Assembly (NCBI GenBank): GCA_021234155.1
Contig: JAJEKV010000054.1
Location: forward strand, 7,708,655-7,772,654
Direction: 5' to 3'
Source of the DNA: Isoetes taiwanensis
Taxonomy: Eukaryota; Streptophyta; Lycopodiopsida; Isoetales; Isoetaceae
Length of the DNA stretch: 64,000 bases
Shown: piece by piece, positions 39,352-61,835 of the stretch
Layout of the letters: each line of letters begins with the position of its first letter
Numbering within the stretch: the stretch's first letter is position 1
The notes under the pieces: model-generated
What the model was told of the DNA's origin: nothing
What the model saw: only the letters and a program-made list of their open reading frames with translations
Databases searched by the model: none
Program-made: the position numbers and the translations under genes

Positions 39352-40968
39352 TGTGACGTTCCAGCATAATATATGTCCCGTATACGTATATTATACTGCC
39401 ACGTCACCCGTACATGTCACGAATGACATGTACTTGGAGGTTGTAGCAGGTTGCACCTAGGGGGCAAGGGTTGCACCTAGGGGGCAACTTTGAATATTGT
39501 GCATGTTAAATAAACATACACAATTAATAACCCCATGGGCCCCATTGCCAAATGGCTAAACCCCATTTGCCAATGTTTTAACCTAACTCTAAGGGTTTCT
39601 ATATAAGGGTTTTCCCCTTAAACCCTAAACCCTTTTCGTTCCTTGCATTTTAGAGTTTCCATAGAGCTCCTTTCCCTTTTCGCATTTAGGGTTCTCTTGA
39701 GCCATTTCGGCCAAGTCAAGACCCCATTTCGCATTGCTCGGCCCTGCAAAGCCGTCTTTGCACAACAGATCATCGAGTAGCAGCCATCTTCAGCGAGATC
39801 AGAGACATGGATGCGTTCCGAGGAGCCGGAGCGGGTCAAGGACCAGGTATCTAGTCATTCTGTTGTGCAATGCCGTCTTTGGGCTAGGCAGTGAGGTAGT
39901 TTAGCATATTCACTCAGCCATAGAGGCCTTATAGATCCCAAGATCATAAGCCTTAACTAAGGAACCTAACTCTGTTGTTTAGGTAGATAGATTAGATGAT
40001 AATCTTCATTTCAAGTTCTGTGATGATGTTGATATTTCATTCTGTGACCTCCATGTATTGGGAAGGGGGGTAGAGACCCTAGCAGCCTTGTAGAAGATGA
40101 TCCTAGAATAGTATCATTCATTAGTGCCCAATTGTTGCGGCCTGTACACAGGAGCCCACCGGGTTGAAGGTGGAGGAACCAGACCGGCAGACAAGGAGGT
40201 ACTTGTCCCAACACAGATCAATCCCTCTGGTGTGTAAAGCCTACCAGGGATTCTAGTGAGCTAGGTCTAATGCCTTGTCACTGCGTGTGGGCAAGGCATG
40301 GGCTCGACACCCGTGGAGTGATGCGTCACTCTCCATTGGGTTCAAGTCGAATAAGGGCAGTGGCCCTCTAGCCACCTGTGTTGAGCATGGAAGCCTCTGG
40401 GGGAAGGGTGACCTTCCTCCTGCCTCATCGAGGCTGGGGAGATGCAACCCAGTAGTAGCCCTCTTGGCTATATACCCGGCAGGCTACGGTCCAGTCCCAA
40501 TACTTATCAATCCACTCTGCAAAGTGTGTACAGGAGGGGCGGATGGAGTGGACTACCCAACAGCCATGTTCCTTTGCCAGCCAAATCCATTGCCATGAAT
40601 TCTGTCTGCAATGACTTCTGGAGGCCAAGCTGTCAGTCGAACCCCCTTGAGTCAGAGCCCCGGGTAGGATTCCCTCGTTGATATTAATCATATTGAAGAT
40701 GTTGTATATGTGATGATGATGATATGTTCACTCTTCGAGGTGATTGTATTTATATACTGTTAGTTTGTGCTCATGTTTGTTTATTCACGCTTCCGCAGAT
40801 AGGTCGACCCGATGGGAGACAGGTGAATGACACATCCATTCTTCCCTTGCTGACTCATTCCACTAGGAGTGGAGTCAGGTGGATGGCCCCTGCCAGTGTA
40901 GCTGCCAGGGGGAATGCTCCTCCTTCGGATACGATGTGTGCATCGTATAAGGAGTAGGGGACGTCACA
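39352..40968 (+). repeat. 5' LTR, 1617 bp, with exact TGTGACGT...ACGTCACA ends
   Basis: The first eight bases (TGTGACGT) and the last eight (ACGTCACA) are exact inverted complements, and a PBS begins one base after the end. A TATA-like TATATAAGG at about 39599-39607 lies 250 bp in and is followed by a leader with CCCTAAA words. It carries a tandem pair of TTGCACCTAGGGGGCAA (39451-39467, 39471-39487). Frames inside (for example 40275-40598) look like LTR by-products. No 3' LTR is in the window. Confidence 0.85.
39599..39607 (+). promoter_or_regulatory. LTR TATA box
   Basis: TATATAAGG within the 5' LTR, in a context (CCCCTTAAACCCTAAACCC just downstream) typical of an LTR promoter. Transcription would start roughly 30 bases further right. 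Inferred from position only. Confidence 0.5.
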
Positions 40969-40969
40969 G

Positions 40970-40981
40970 TGGTATCAGAGC
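40970..40981 (+). other. Primer-binding site, initiator tRNA-Met type
   Basis: TGGTATCAGAGC, one base after the LTR end. It sets the plus orientation of the element and proves that the 1617-bp block is a 5' LTR followed by internal DNA, not a solo LTR. Confidence 0.9.
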
Positions 40982-41187
40982 ATGATCTTGGTAGACCAAG
41001 ATCAAGCACTGACCATTTTTCCCATAGGACTAACAGTAGATTCAAGCCTTGGGAAATGGCCACCCAAGCAGGAACCTCAAAAATTGGAAAATTTTTTCCA
41101 ATTTCTAGTGTAGAGAATAGGCTAATGCGCAGTTAGTAATAAATTTTAGTAGTAACTCAATCTGAAATGGCTAAAAAGAGGTAACTC

Positions 41188-41438
41188 CTCACAGAGTGCG
41201 CCCAGGCCAAATCCATTTGGAATCCAAATTGATCCTGGCGCACTGTGTGAGTGGTGGACCCATGTTGACCTAGTTAGACGTATAATTTAGCTAAACTAAT
41301 GGTACAGTTCAGCTTATCTCATTGATTCTAGCTAGTTTTGCATGTTATAACACTAAGAAACCCCTTGTAAATTGAAAATTGGACCCAAAAAGAGGTGACC
41401 CCTCACAGAGTGCGCCCAGGCTGGCGCACTGTGTGAGT
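41188..41438 (+). repeat. Two related stem-loops in the retroelement leader
   Basis: The arms TCACAGAGTGCGCC and GGCGCACTGTGTGA (14 bp, one mismatch) occur twice: at 41189-41202 with 41237-41250, and at 41403-41416 with 41423-41436. Flanks are also repeated (GGT-A/G-AC-T/C-CC before, GTGGTGGA after). Loops differ: 34 bases versus 6. They lie between the PBS and the first ORF, where packaging or translation signals of LTR elements reside. Confidence 0.8.
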
Positions 41439-41662
41439 GGTGGATGCTTTTTGGCTAAATAAACCTAATGTACCCCTCAGATCTTCACTAATACCTTCTA
41501 GATTGGGCCAATATGGAATTGCAGGTCCAAACCCTAAATTTCCCCTACCTATAAATAGAAAATTAGGGTTCCTCATTTGTCCCCAGCGCCTTTGGAGAAC
41601 AGCTTGTCCCAGAAAACGATCTTTAGGCGCCCGAGCTCGGAATTCTTCAAACAAACAAAGAC

Positions 41663-42031
41663 ATGGCCCGCACCAAACAGACCGCCCGAAAGGTAGTGCC
41701 CCCTGGATATGTCAGCGCCCAAGAGCGAGCAGCTCAACAGAAGGCCCGACGGACTCAAGAGCGAGCCGAGTGGGATCACGAAGAGCAGGAGGCCCAACCT
41801 AACCCAGATACACAGGAGGAGACCCCTGAGCACCAGGAGGAAGCCCCTGAGCACCAGAAGGAGGAGCGGCCGCAAGGCCTTGAAGAGGTAGCAGAAGAGC
41901 TTACAGCGAAAGAAGCTGCAGAGTTGCTGCAGAGGGAGCTCGAGAGAGAGCTCTTCAAGGACTCTAACGAGGAAGAATTCTGGATAAGACTTTTCAATCT
42001 TCTAGGTAAGTCCATATTGTTTGGCTCTTAA
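41663..42031 (+). CDS. Gag-position ORF with a histone H3-identical N-terminus
   Basis: First long ORF after the LTR and PBS (122 codons, start in the favourable context AGACATGG). After Met, which plant aminopeptidase should remove before Ala, residues 1-9 are ARTKQTARK, identical to histone H3 A1-K9. From residue 10 (Val-Val-Pro-Pro) no H3 similarity remains; the H3 phospho-Ser10 is absent. The rest is highly charged: a Gln/Arg segment, a Glu/Pro/His part with an imperfect repeat (E-T-P-E-H-Q-E-E / E-A-P-E-H-Q-K-E-E) and a Glu/Leu-rich, coiled-coil-like stretch (about residues 74-105). There is no zinc knuckle. A strong donor-like site (TAG then GTAAGT at 42006) cuts the ORF, so the protein could be spliced there. 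It may be a Gag N-terminus, an accessory protein, or a captured host exon. Confidence 0.6.
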   Translation: MARTKQTARKVVPPGYVSAQERAAQQKARRTQERAEWDHEEQEAQPNPDTQEETPEHQEEAPEHQKEERPQGLEEVAEELTAKEAAELLQRELERELFKDSNEEEFWIRLFNLLGKSILFGS

Positions 42032-42100
42032 TAGTACTTTCTAATGTTCTCGGAAACTCCATGATTTGAAGTAAGTATCAACGAATTTTTGAGGCATTAG

Positions 42101-42340
42101 GGGGTATATAGCAAGTCTGGTAGCCATCTACATGATCATGCCCATGCTAAGAGTGAAGAAAAAGTACCTGTACTGGACTCTGTAGAGGCCCATATAATGC
42201 ATAATGATAAACGTGAGCATTTTCGGACTAACAAGTCTGACTTATCTCAGAGATTTTAACCCCCAGCATGAACATATGATTCAACCCTACTTGCAGCATT
42301 ATGACGTATCCCCAGGATTGGTTCGAGCACAGGATTGATT
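42101..42340 (+). pseudogene. Coding-like continuation downstream of the H3-tail ORF
   Basis: From the AG at 42100 a frame reads G-V-Y-S-K-S-G-S-H-L-H-D-H-A-H-A-K-S-E-E-K through D-L-S-Q-R, and after a one-base shift Q-H-E-H-M-I-Q-P-Y-L-Q-H-Y-D-V. The composition is protein-like and it may be exon 2 of the ORF upstream. The phase does not join the donor at 42006 exactly, so a base has been lost or gained, or the splice sites differ. Family unknown. No zinc knuckle or pol domain follows before the Helitron end. Confidence 0.35.
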
Positions 42341-42423
42341 CATAAGGGATGCGCAATGTAAGATTCATATATTAATATCAACACATAGATTTTGTTTTGC
42401 TAAGATTCGTATATTAATACATA

Positions 42424-42452
42424 CTAGTAACGGGTGCCCGGCGTTGCCGGGC
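42424..42452 (-). mobile_element. Helitron-like 3' terminus (body extends to higher coordinates)
   Basis: Minus strand: a perfect hairpin GCCCGGC-AAC-GCCGGGC (42452-42436), then ACCCGTTA and the terminal CTAG (42427-42424), followed by T. A GC hairpin of about 17 bases 8-12 bases before CTRR, inserted next to T, is the Helitron 3' signature. The 5' TC end and any Rep/helicase were not found, so the element length is unknown. Confidence 0.6.
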
Positions 42453-53357: not shown

Positions 53358-56300
53358 ATGGCCCATGGAGAAAATTTGCATGCTGTATCATTGAATGGCA
53401 ACAGAAGATTGAGCAGCCAGAGTAATAGTAGCAGGCGAAGTTTTAATGCTTTTCCAGGTCCTGCAGAAGACGATGAAGAGGCACTTATGTGGGCAGCTCT
53501 TGAGAAGCTACCATCTTACAACCGTGTCAGAACAAGCATTCTCGACAATTACTCTGCTGAAGGCCATTTAACAACTGAGGAGGTAGATGTCACCCAGCTT
53601 GGATTGAAGGAAAGACACGAATTTATTGATAGATTGCTCAAGGTGGTGGATCAAGACCATGGGAGGATACTTCAGAAACTCCGAGACCGCATTTCGAGGT
53701 CTAAGAAAGAAGTAATTAGTAGAATTGTGTCATCCTGAGGAAAAGTCTGCTTGTTTTATTAACAGTGGTGGTTATTCTGTAGAGTGGGAATGGAATTGCC
53801 AAGAGTAGAAGTTCGATATGACCACCTGAATGTACAGGCGGAATGTTATGCAGGCCAAAGAGCTCTTCCAACTTTCTTAAATGCTGCCAGGAACATGCTT
53901 GAGGTAGGCTGATTGTATAGCTTGTTTAAAATTTAGAGATTAATAACGAAGATCTATTGTCCACACGCCTTTATCCTCCTGCCTCCCTTAACAATTGCTG
54001 AAGTTAGTTGATCTTAGTCTGAAGAGGCATTTAGAGGACCTGCTTTAATTAAATGATATTTTATATGATTGCTGAAGTTAGTTGATCTTAGTCTGAAGAG
54101 GCATTTAGAGGACCTGCTTTAATTAAATGATATTTTATATGTTGCGCCATCATCCATTGAACACAAGGCCAAACTCATTTTTATACATCACGGGGAAGTC
54201 TCTGTTCAGGTGTTTGATATTCAAAAATTTGTTTCAAATAACATTGTTCCAACAGGTTTAACATTTTGTTATTTTGACTTGCAATAGGTACAGACAATCT
54301 GACAATAAGGAATCGATATTATTTTGTTTTGGCTTCTTTTGATATTTGTATTACCCTTCAATTTTATGTGCAATGCTCATAAGAAACAAAACTCATGAAA
54401 TACAAGAATTTTTTGCAAGGATCCCCAAGGAGCCCAAACAGACATGTACGAAGGTAGGTATGATAAAATGGTAGCAGACTATTCTACTACCACCACATGC
54501 ATCCTCCCCTTATTTCTTATTCATCTATCTGTTTTGGAACTAGAGGGTCCATCAACTGTTTTAATAGTGCTAGAGCTTTTATTTACAGGTCATTTTGCGA
54601 CTTATTGGGATTTCTGTTGCAAAGAAGGTGAAATTAAATATACTCAAAGATGTTAGTGGAATAATCAAGCCAGGAAGGTAAAGGTTGACGTTGATAAAAT
54701 TTCTAACTTCATAATTCCAACTTTCTTGGTCCTATTCTCTAGGATGACTCTACTGCTTGGGCCACCAGGTTCTGGCAAGACTACTTTGCTTTTGGCTCTT
54801 GCTAATAAACTTGGTAAAGAACTTAAGGTGAGTCTTCACATGTGATATTTACTTTCAAAGAACATGGCAATTCTCTTAACGTTCTTATATCAGGTTATAG
54901 GAAAGGTGTCATACAATGGGCATGAACTCCATCAGTTTGTGCCTGAGAAAACATCAAGTTACATTAGCCAAGACGATTTGCACACTGGAGAGATGACTGT
55001 CAGAGAGACACTTGAATTCTCTGCACGATGTCAAGGGCCAGGCATAAGACATGGTAAGTTTCATTGGCATAAACATATGAAACTAATCTTGCATTCATAC
55101 CAAATTTCTGTTTCGTGTAGAATTGACTTCTGAAATAACAAAGAGGGAGAAGCAAGCTGGGATAATTTGTGACGCAGAACTTGACCTTTTCATGAAAGTA
55201 TGTTCTATATCATGGGAGTGTCCCTATTCCATTAACAGCTAAAGTTAATTGTCAGACATCCTTTCTTATTTCCTTCATAGGCCATAGCCGACAAGGAAGT
55301 CCAGAGCAAAATAATGACAGACTACATCTTGAAGGTATGTGTTTAAGTGATGCACTACGTCTTGAAGGCATGAGCTTCTCTTTAAGGAGAAAGAAGATTG
55401 GCATAATTTGAGCCCCGACTTCCAGATACTTGACCTTGATATATGCGCGGACACTATTGTTGGTGATAACATGCAAAGGGGAATTTCTGGTGGCCAAAAG
55501 AAACGTGTTACAACGGGTAAGAACAGCAACCAATTACATGTTTGATTCAAAGTGTTCTTTATAGAACATAATTTTGTCTCCATCATTTTGTGCATGAATC
55601 TACAGGAGAAATGGTAGTGGGGCCAGCAAGAACCCTGTTCATGGATAATATATCAACTGGTCTAGATAGCTCTACAACCCATCAGATTGTGAAGTGCTTC
55701 CAGCAATTGGTGCATGCATTGAAAACTACAACAATGATATCACTGCTTCAGCCCTCACCAGAGACATACAATCTTTTTGATGACATACTTTTGCTATGTG
55801 AGGGCCAAGTAGTATATCATGGGCCCCGGGAGCATGTGCTGGACTTTTTTGAGACTTGTGGCTTCAAATGTCCAGATAGGAAAGGTCATGCAGACTTCTT
55901 GCAAGAGGTAACTTGTCTTTTGCCTTATACCTTCAGTTCCTAGATGATCCTCTTACATCCTAGCAATGGAACAGGTCACATCATACAAGGACCAGGAGCA
56001 ATATTGGTTACACAAAACAAAGCCATATAAGTATGTGACGGTGGAAGACTTTGCACAAAGATTTAAGGATTATCATGTTGGACAAAACTTGAATGGCGAA
56101 CTCTTGTGTCCATTTTACAAGGATTCTAGCGCCAAAGCAGCACTTGTTTTTAAAAAATATGCACTGAGCAAAAGAGAATTATTCAGGATACTATTGGATA
56201 GAGAAATTCTCTTATTTAAACGCAATTTGTTCATTTATATTTTCCGGATTGTGCAGGTGAAGTTTATAAATAATCTTTCTTATCCATTTCTCATATTTTG

Positions 56301-61807: not shown

Positions 61808-61835
61808 CTAGAAAAAGTGCCCAGCGTTGCTGGGC
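61808..61835 (-). mobile_element. Second Helitron-like 3' terminus
   Basis: Minus strand: hairpin GCCCAGC-AAC-GCTGGGC (61835-61819), then ACTTTTT and CTAG (61811-61808), next base T. Same architecture as the end at 42424-42452, with one base pair of the stem exchanged in both arms. The body extends to higher coordinates. The 5' end was not found. Confidence 0.6.

Follow-up and report, generated by a model that had tools for sequence, protein, structure and literature searches.

A family of Ty3/gypsy chromoviruses in the quillwort Isoetes taiwanensis almost certainly encodes its own histone H3. An earlier note on this DNA had taken the first ORF behind an LTR for a leader ORF with a short H3-like tail. 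That finding is upheld and enlarged here: the retrotransposon-encoded protein is an H3 and more than a tail, and its role is one that we infer. In intact copies of this family (family A) the protein, ORF1, has 385-421 residues and consists of the H3 tail, a ~270-residue K/R/E-rich linker and a complete H3 fold.

The window, the whole 64-kb stretch of DNA analysed here, contains one broken copy of family A. An ORF of 122 residues starting MARTKQTARKVVPPGY lies at 41663-42031 on the + strand, and its beginning (41663-41692, +) reads by direct translation as ATG followed by ARTKQTARK, an exact match to histone H3 A1-K9 that is conserved in the family. The similarity of the window ORF to H3 ends at residue 10, where Val replaces Ser10. 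Removal of Met before Ala would, by the general rules, expose Ala1. Calculated from the window's own 3-mer frequencies, ATG followed by ARTKQTARK is expected by chance 6.6e-9 times per window, and a six-frame scan of the 64-kb window gave no second MARTK start. The tail is at the true N-terminus, as had been claimed, and is not a chance match.

The 5' LTR of the chromovirus (39352-40968, +, 1617 bp) has the matching ends TGTGACGT...ACGTCACA and a TATA at about 39600. Directly 3' of it the PBS TGGTATCAGAGC is read (40970-40981, +), which we take to be of the plant initiator tRNA-Met type. The leader carries a repeat with inverted arms CTCACAGAGTGCGCC...GGCGCACTGTGTGAG (41173-41258, +) and a second, shorter copy of the same unit (41385-41444, +). 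The unit recurs on both sides of the ORF in other copies; with its inverted arms (75-86 bp) it was seen at several places in L002-L008, and in L006 at about 204-bp spacing downstream of the ORF. A TATA-like box, TATAAATAG (41550-41558, +), 105 bp before the ORF ATG, is a possible internal promoter. Three other copies (L003, L005 and L006) match the window without a break from about 40.1 kb, inside the LTR, via PBS, leader and ORF to 41949-41975, so that the last ~0.85 kb of the LTR is matched in one piece with the ORF. Therefore, LTR and ORF belong to one element, and the setting of LTR, PBS and leader ORF proposed in the earlier note stands. The same three copies rule out a further reading, in which the ORF would belong to another, nested insertion that has a promoter of its own. 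We also observed an ATG inside the LTR (39807-39847) that starts a frame of 13 codons, MDAFRGAGAGQGP, which continues into a GT donor-like site; together with an acceptor-like TTTTTCCCATAG after the PBS, which ends at 41027, this frame is a possible LTR-borne first exon.

The window copy loses its similarity to the family at about 41976, and no copy matches beyond 41977. What survives of ORF1 (41663-41976, +) is the H3 tail and the first ~95 residues of the charged linker; the histone fold is lost. ORF1 is present in the window as its broken 5' end, and the last ~17 codons of the window ORF are unrelated to the family, because similarity is lost at that point. The unrelated sequence (41977-42426, +) holds these codons, the stop and an AG/GTAAGT at about 42006, which was ruled out as the end of a coding exon since it lies beyond the point where the window leaves the family. 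Past the truncated copy, no Pfam match to gag or pol was found on the + strand between 40 and 59.9 kb. Helitron-like 3' ends (a GC hairpin, then CTAGT) are present on the minus strand at 42427, beside the truncated copy, and at 61811, near the ABC transporter region. A PPR-DYW gene is also present in the window, together with a PDR-type ABC transporter, and both are in keeping with a land plant; the region of the ABC transporter gene has a perfect 74-bp tandem duplication (53994-54141).

The I. taiwanensis assembly (1,658,258,908 bases in 1110 contigs) was searched with the window DNA 41600-42200, which gave at least 41 matches (40 of 304 candidates scored), and with the ORF protein, which gave at least 152 (150 of 1292 candidates scored). 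Among the protein matches listed, all but about ten begin at residue 1, and their open frames extend up to 489 aa. We read the starts of 40 copies, comprising the 20 best DNA matches and 20 copies picked for long open frames. MARTKQTAR was exact in 8 of the former and 17 of the latter, and the tail was in register from the ATG in 38 of the 40. Many genomic copies thus have the tail, as had been anticipated, and it is not lacking from other copies of the element. Position counts were made on these 38 tails, leaving out one copy with a frame shift after Q5 (L016) and one with its start lost (L026). T3 and K4 were each kept in 38/38. R2 was R in 33, C in 3 and H in 2 tails, while R8 was R in 34, C in 2, S in 1 and H in 1; the C and H changes would fit decay of methylated CpG. 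Residue 9 was K in 17 tails, I in 15, M in 5 and T in 1, the window copy being of the K type. Of the claim that both K4 and K9 are held in register, the K4 part stood and the K9 part did not. Since residue 9 varies, it is K4 with its neighbours, and not K9, that is common to all lineages.

A profile search of two 10-kb copies, in three frames on the element strand, detected PF00125 (core histone) between the tail and gag in both L010 (8.3e-14) and L021 (3.3e-21). Overlapping frames, and then intact ORFs, revealed that tail, linker and fold are one protein; 14 intact natural frames were obtained, from diverged subfamilies. The 397-aa ORF of L036 (P0002) matched PF00125 at 6.6e-22, and its best matches in PDB were solved H3 structures (8.6e-20). 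In such an intact protein the H3 fold lies about 300 residues downstream of the tail and ends HAKRVTCMP(K/R)D...KK(E/D). This is therefore an element-encoded H3 with a tail insertion and not a bare tail mimic, and the earlier statement that the ORF is not an H3 gene has to be withdrawn. At 385-421 aa, ORF1 does not fit the H3 length of about 136 residues without a large insertion. Compared with ARTKQTARKS..., family A keeps A1-R8, is variable at residue 9 and lacks S10. The AlphaFold model of P0002 was poor (pLDDT 57.4, pTM 0.23), and its helix order fits aN-a1-a2-a3 at low confidence.

When P0002 was searched against the protein database, 742 matches were obtained from 7965 scored candidates. 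The 120 listed were H3-containing proteins by their names and Pfam lists, with 31-49% identity and a coverage of mostly 22%, in some cases 30-41%, of the query; five that were opened were all repeats of ordinary H3. In protein sets that may lack Isoetes, P0001 gave 35 candidates, none at E<=10, and the linker alone gave 10, none at E<=1; the viral-contig and phage sets gave no match. The L036 copy has an antisense fragment of the H3 fold (51% identity over 41 residues; L049:2404-2526 and L050:731-853) directly upstream of each of its LTRs. In the 10-kb stretch of L012 there is a second H3-fold match (L012:2360-2713, minus), separated from the first by about 3.5 kb. The abrupt end of H3 similarity at residue 10 in the window copy might have spoken for a chance match, or for a stray H3 pseudogene next to an unrelated ORF. 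Both are vanishingly improbable in view of the chance expectation and the 38 of 40 copies in register, and are already refuted by the H3 fold in the same frame of the intact copies.

Selection was assessed by pooled pairwise Nei-Gojobori comparison of the 14 intact ORFs. The values of dN/dS were 0.024 for Met and A1-R8 (pS 0.64), 0.25 across residues 9-20, 0.20 in the linker and 0.064 in the fold; these are rough estimates, as long-frame copies had been selected and pS approaches saturation, and what is robust in them is how the regions differ. Comparison of these sequences indicates that tail A1-R8, and the fold too, are under very strong purifying selection. The expectation that the tail would be more constrained than the rest was borne out. 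The window tail codons share 21-23 of 30 bases with each of four host H3 genes while encoding the same peptide, so the tail has been kept by selection and not freshly copied. Capture of genes by LTR elements is documented (the accessible part of PMC7264820), and an H3 gene could have been picked up accidentally and carried along as a functionless passenger. We consider this very improbable, given the tail value of 0.024 and fold values of 0.012-0.064 at high synonymous divergence, and the intact frames in several lineages.

Residue 9 is bound to lineage as K, I or M. When a tree of 13 ORFs was computed with the tail left out, the K type (7 rows) formed one clade (98/98), the M type (3 rows) formed another (100/100), and the I type (3 rows) lay between them. 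Residue 9 changed twice in all on this tree, which is midpoint-rooted and does not give the order of change. One ORF with an out-of-frame stretch in the fold (L041) was left out of this tree and the fold tree and kept in the dN/dS set; L032, L033, L035, L040, L046 and L047, with cut, shifted or short frames, were left out of all three. L039 was kept throughout despite an odd linker stretch, and L065 was left out of the fold tree.

By its LTR, PBS, gag-pol order and chromodomain, family A is a Ty3/gypsy chromovirus. In L010 we identified Retrotrans_gag (3.9e-16), RVT_1 (4e-37), RNase H and the integrase zinc finger, with a protease match below its cut-off; L027 has the same domain set with a clear protease (1.9e-9). 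L050, downstream of L036, has RNase H, H2C2, rve and a chromodomain (3.6e-9), the latter seen in this one copy, which was read that far. Across these copies gag, protease, RT, RNase H and integrase follow in that order on one strand. Family A shares with chromoviruses the LTR, PBS, gag, protease, RT, RNase H, integrase and chromodomain, and differs from them in having a histone ORF before gag and a second ORF between the two. This conserved ORF2 (L018:4443-5330, minus, MATTAFRRWYSATAHVAEADIN...) has equivalents in L011, L019, L020 and L022; no Pfam match was found for ORF2, and that of L018 had no PDB match. In the L036 copy, the sequences upstream of the 5' and 3' LTRs are 98.9% identical over 643 columns, and the compared part of the LTR pair, whose 3' member is incomplete, is 96.7% identical over 693 columns with 11 mismatches and 12 gaps. 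This suggests tandem copies with shared LTRs and a fairly young age.

PF00125 was also searched against the genome, where at least 150 loci scored over the cut-off (150 of 8704 first-look candidates scored); the figure of 8704 is not a copy count, since the first look was loose and takes in all core histones. Fifteen of the 150 rows had a canonical-H3 score (164-165 bits), and the four of these that were read (L066-L069) were all canonical. Among the other 135 rows, the 16 that were read all have the H3 fold with something other than the H3 tail ahead of it, and are of three kinds, B (8), C (3) and D (5). The fold was identified by profile in B and D, and for C in the genome-wide PF00125 search. 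Thirteen of the 16 frames were readable to the N-terminal Met (L064, L065 and L070 are partial), and none of these 13 has an ARTKQT tail. By eye, B, C and D have a common N-terminal domain with R-I/V-P-Y; in L051-L063 this shared domain (family B: ..RIPYPIFHFNERFLIKLN..) makes up the N-terminal ~210 residues and is followed by near-canonical H3 folds. The domain of family B had a best E of 0.22 against PDB, taken as no match.

In L051 of family B the H3 fold scored 1.9e-43, and 4.4-5.8 kb downstream of the ORF, on the same strand, lie an integrase C-terminus SH3_Tf2-1 (5.6e-22) and a Chromo domain (1.9e-8) (L071). Family B is the one of the three further families for which the downstream context was read. 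In a hand alignment with HP1, the L071 chromodomain has Ile, Trp and Leu at the aromatic-cage positions of HP1. Group II chromodomains are described with such an altered HP1 aromatic cage in the available text of PMC12786077.

Compared with canonical plant H3 (host L066-L069), family A has the same tail A1-R8, order of the H3 fold and loop 1 length. It differs in its 385-421 aa with the ~270-aa tail linker, in a fold identity of 49-53%, in K/I/M at residue 9 with no S10, and in its place between PBS and gag. Families B-D, in contrast, share 84-88% of fold residues with host H3. In the fold tree family A is one clade (100/99), whereas B, C and D group with the H3 of the host at modest support (B 85/95, C 90/89, D 54/42); the tree does not separate one capture from several, nor a capture common to A and B-D. 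In the same comparison, fold dN/dS was 0.054 in both A and B, 0.012 in C and 0.027 in D, compared to 0.014 in the host. QEF is present in all four host H3 and in 14/15 of the B-D folds, while the angiosperm and animal sequences compared have QDF, which would suit a capture within the lycophyte line.

Family A could instead have been derived from CENH3, or mimic it, and load at centromeres. LLIPRA.F and EIRHFQ resemble Arabidopsis CENH3, and family A joins CENH3 in the fold tree (90/77), a join that carries a warning of long branches meeting and was obtained with this single CENH3 and an H3/CENP-A chimera chain as root. However, loop 1 in 13 family A folds is of H3 length and not two residues longer as in CENH3, the best PDB matches are H3, and no host CENH3 was recovered in the searches. 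A centromere-type histone is thus quite improbable.

We tentatively favour anti-silencing as the main role of the element-encoded H3, at somewhat less than an even chance. If expressed, the ORF1 protein would be imported like a histone, pair with H4 and end up in chromatin close to element DNA or to sites of integration, and enzymes and readers that hold H3 by residues 1-8 would meet its tail. Methylation at residue 9 would be impossible in the M9 and I9 lineages, whose tails may, in the manner of H3K9M, trap H3K9 methyltransferases; in the K9 lineages, with Val for Ser10, the tail may act as a decoy substrate. As a net outcome, H3K9me would silence the element less strongly. Of the 38 tails, 5 combine an intact start with Met at position 9, and 15 do so with Ile. 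Like K9M, K9I probably inhibits H3K9 methylation. K9M blocks H3K9 methylation in trans in a dominant manner, according to the accessible portion of eLife 17903 (PMC5030085), in which the term K9I occurs 0 times. The H3K9 methylation pathway is a known parasite target, since TrAP, a protein of a plant DNA virus (geminivirus), inhibits SUVH4/KYP (PMC4606454, in the part available). Against anti-silencing, loss of K9 is not general, as 17/38 tails keep it. Entry of family A into nucleosomes is not assured either, because its fold is only 49-53% identical to host H3.

Since B-D have no ARTKQT tail in the 13 of 16 frames readable to their N-terminus, the tail cannot be the common purpose of the histone, and whatever function the four families share must reside in the fold. 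This makes tethering or targeting a close rival: ORF1 may enter nucleosomes, its linker or N-terminal domain may dock integrase or Gag and so place insertions, and the tail may be kept for K4-side readers and not to block silencing. Families A-D have the fold in common and all possess an extra domain or linker, a chromodomain integrase lies downstream in one A and one B copy, and the K4 side of the tail is invariant. Yet tethering does not predict lineage-fixed loss of K9, and the chromodomain already provides targeting, which leaves this reading possible if doubtful. The strongly basic linker with KKRKR-like runs, and the place of ORF1 upstream of gag, could also mean that ORF1 compacts the RNA or cDNA of the element within particles, or brings the preintegration complex in by histone importins. 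Such a packaging or import function is unlikely, however, as it leaves unexplained an invariant ARTKQTAR beside a fast linker, and likewise the conserved H3-type fold.

Virus-encoded histones exist; bracovirus H4, for example, is a core histone of a parasite with an altered tail. That is an H4 of an insect virus, whereas here an H3 is found in a plant retrotransposon. If family A does fight silencing with its own histone, it would be the first transposable element known to us to do so. As in plant LTR elements with additional ORFs, such as the orchid Ty3/Gypsy element with an AlkB demethylase (PMC12786077, available text), a captured host function stands beside gag-pol; here it is a core histone, there an RNA demethylase. 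The M lineage of family A shares with H3K9M, as set out in the available part of PMC5030085, a Met at 9 in an otherwise intact tail start, and differs in being natural and element-borne, with a long linker and Val at 10; its inhibition of methylation is a prediction. TrAP (PMC4606454) is, as proposed here for family A, a plant genomic parasite's means against H3K9 methylation; it binds the catalytic domain of the enzyme, and is not described as a histone in the accessible text. Among the matches listed in the open-access literature searched, titles and abstract starts gave no report of a retrotransposon-encoded H3. The word histone is absent from the main text of a review of additional ORFs (PMC7264820), as it is from those of the genome papers on I. 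taiwanensis (PMC8566536) and I. sinensis (PMC10541799).

Core histones are host proteins. If an element keeps an H3 of its own, the nucleosome itself would become part of the contest in which mobile elements and silencing face each other. It is possible, though we would not count on it, that quillwort chromoviruses took H3 into their own replication cycle and radiated into several families, with perhaps thousands of copies, that encode chromatin-entering histones, some lineages poisoning host H3K9 methylation with K9M or K9I. If a chromovirus histone does poison H3K9 methylation, its target would be the very system that silences these elements. The split of residue 9 into K, I and M under a frozen ARTKQTAR is a natural test of which tail contacts matter, and opens the experiment of asking whether a natural K9M/K9I histone shields the element from H3K9me. 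A Gypsy expansion is reported for Isoetes in the available part of PMC10541799, and an element-encoded H3 might, speculatively, bear on it.
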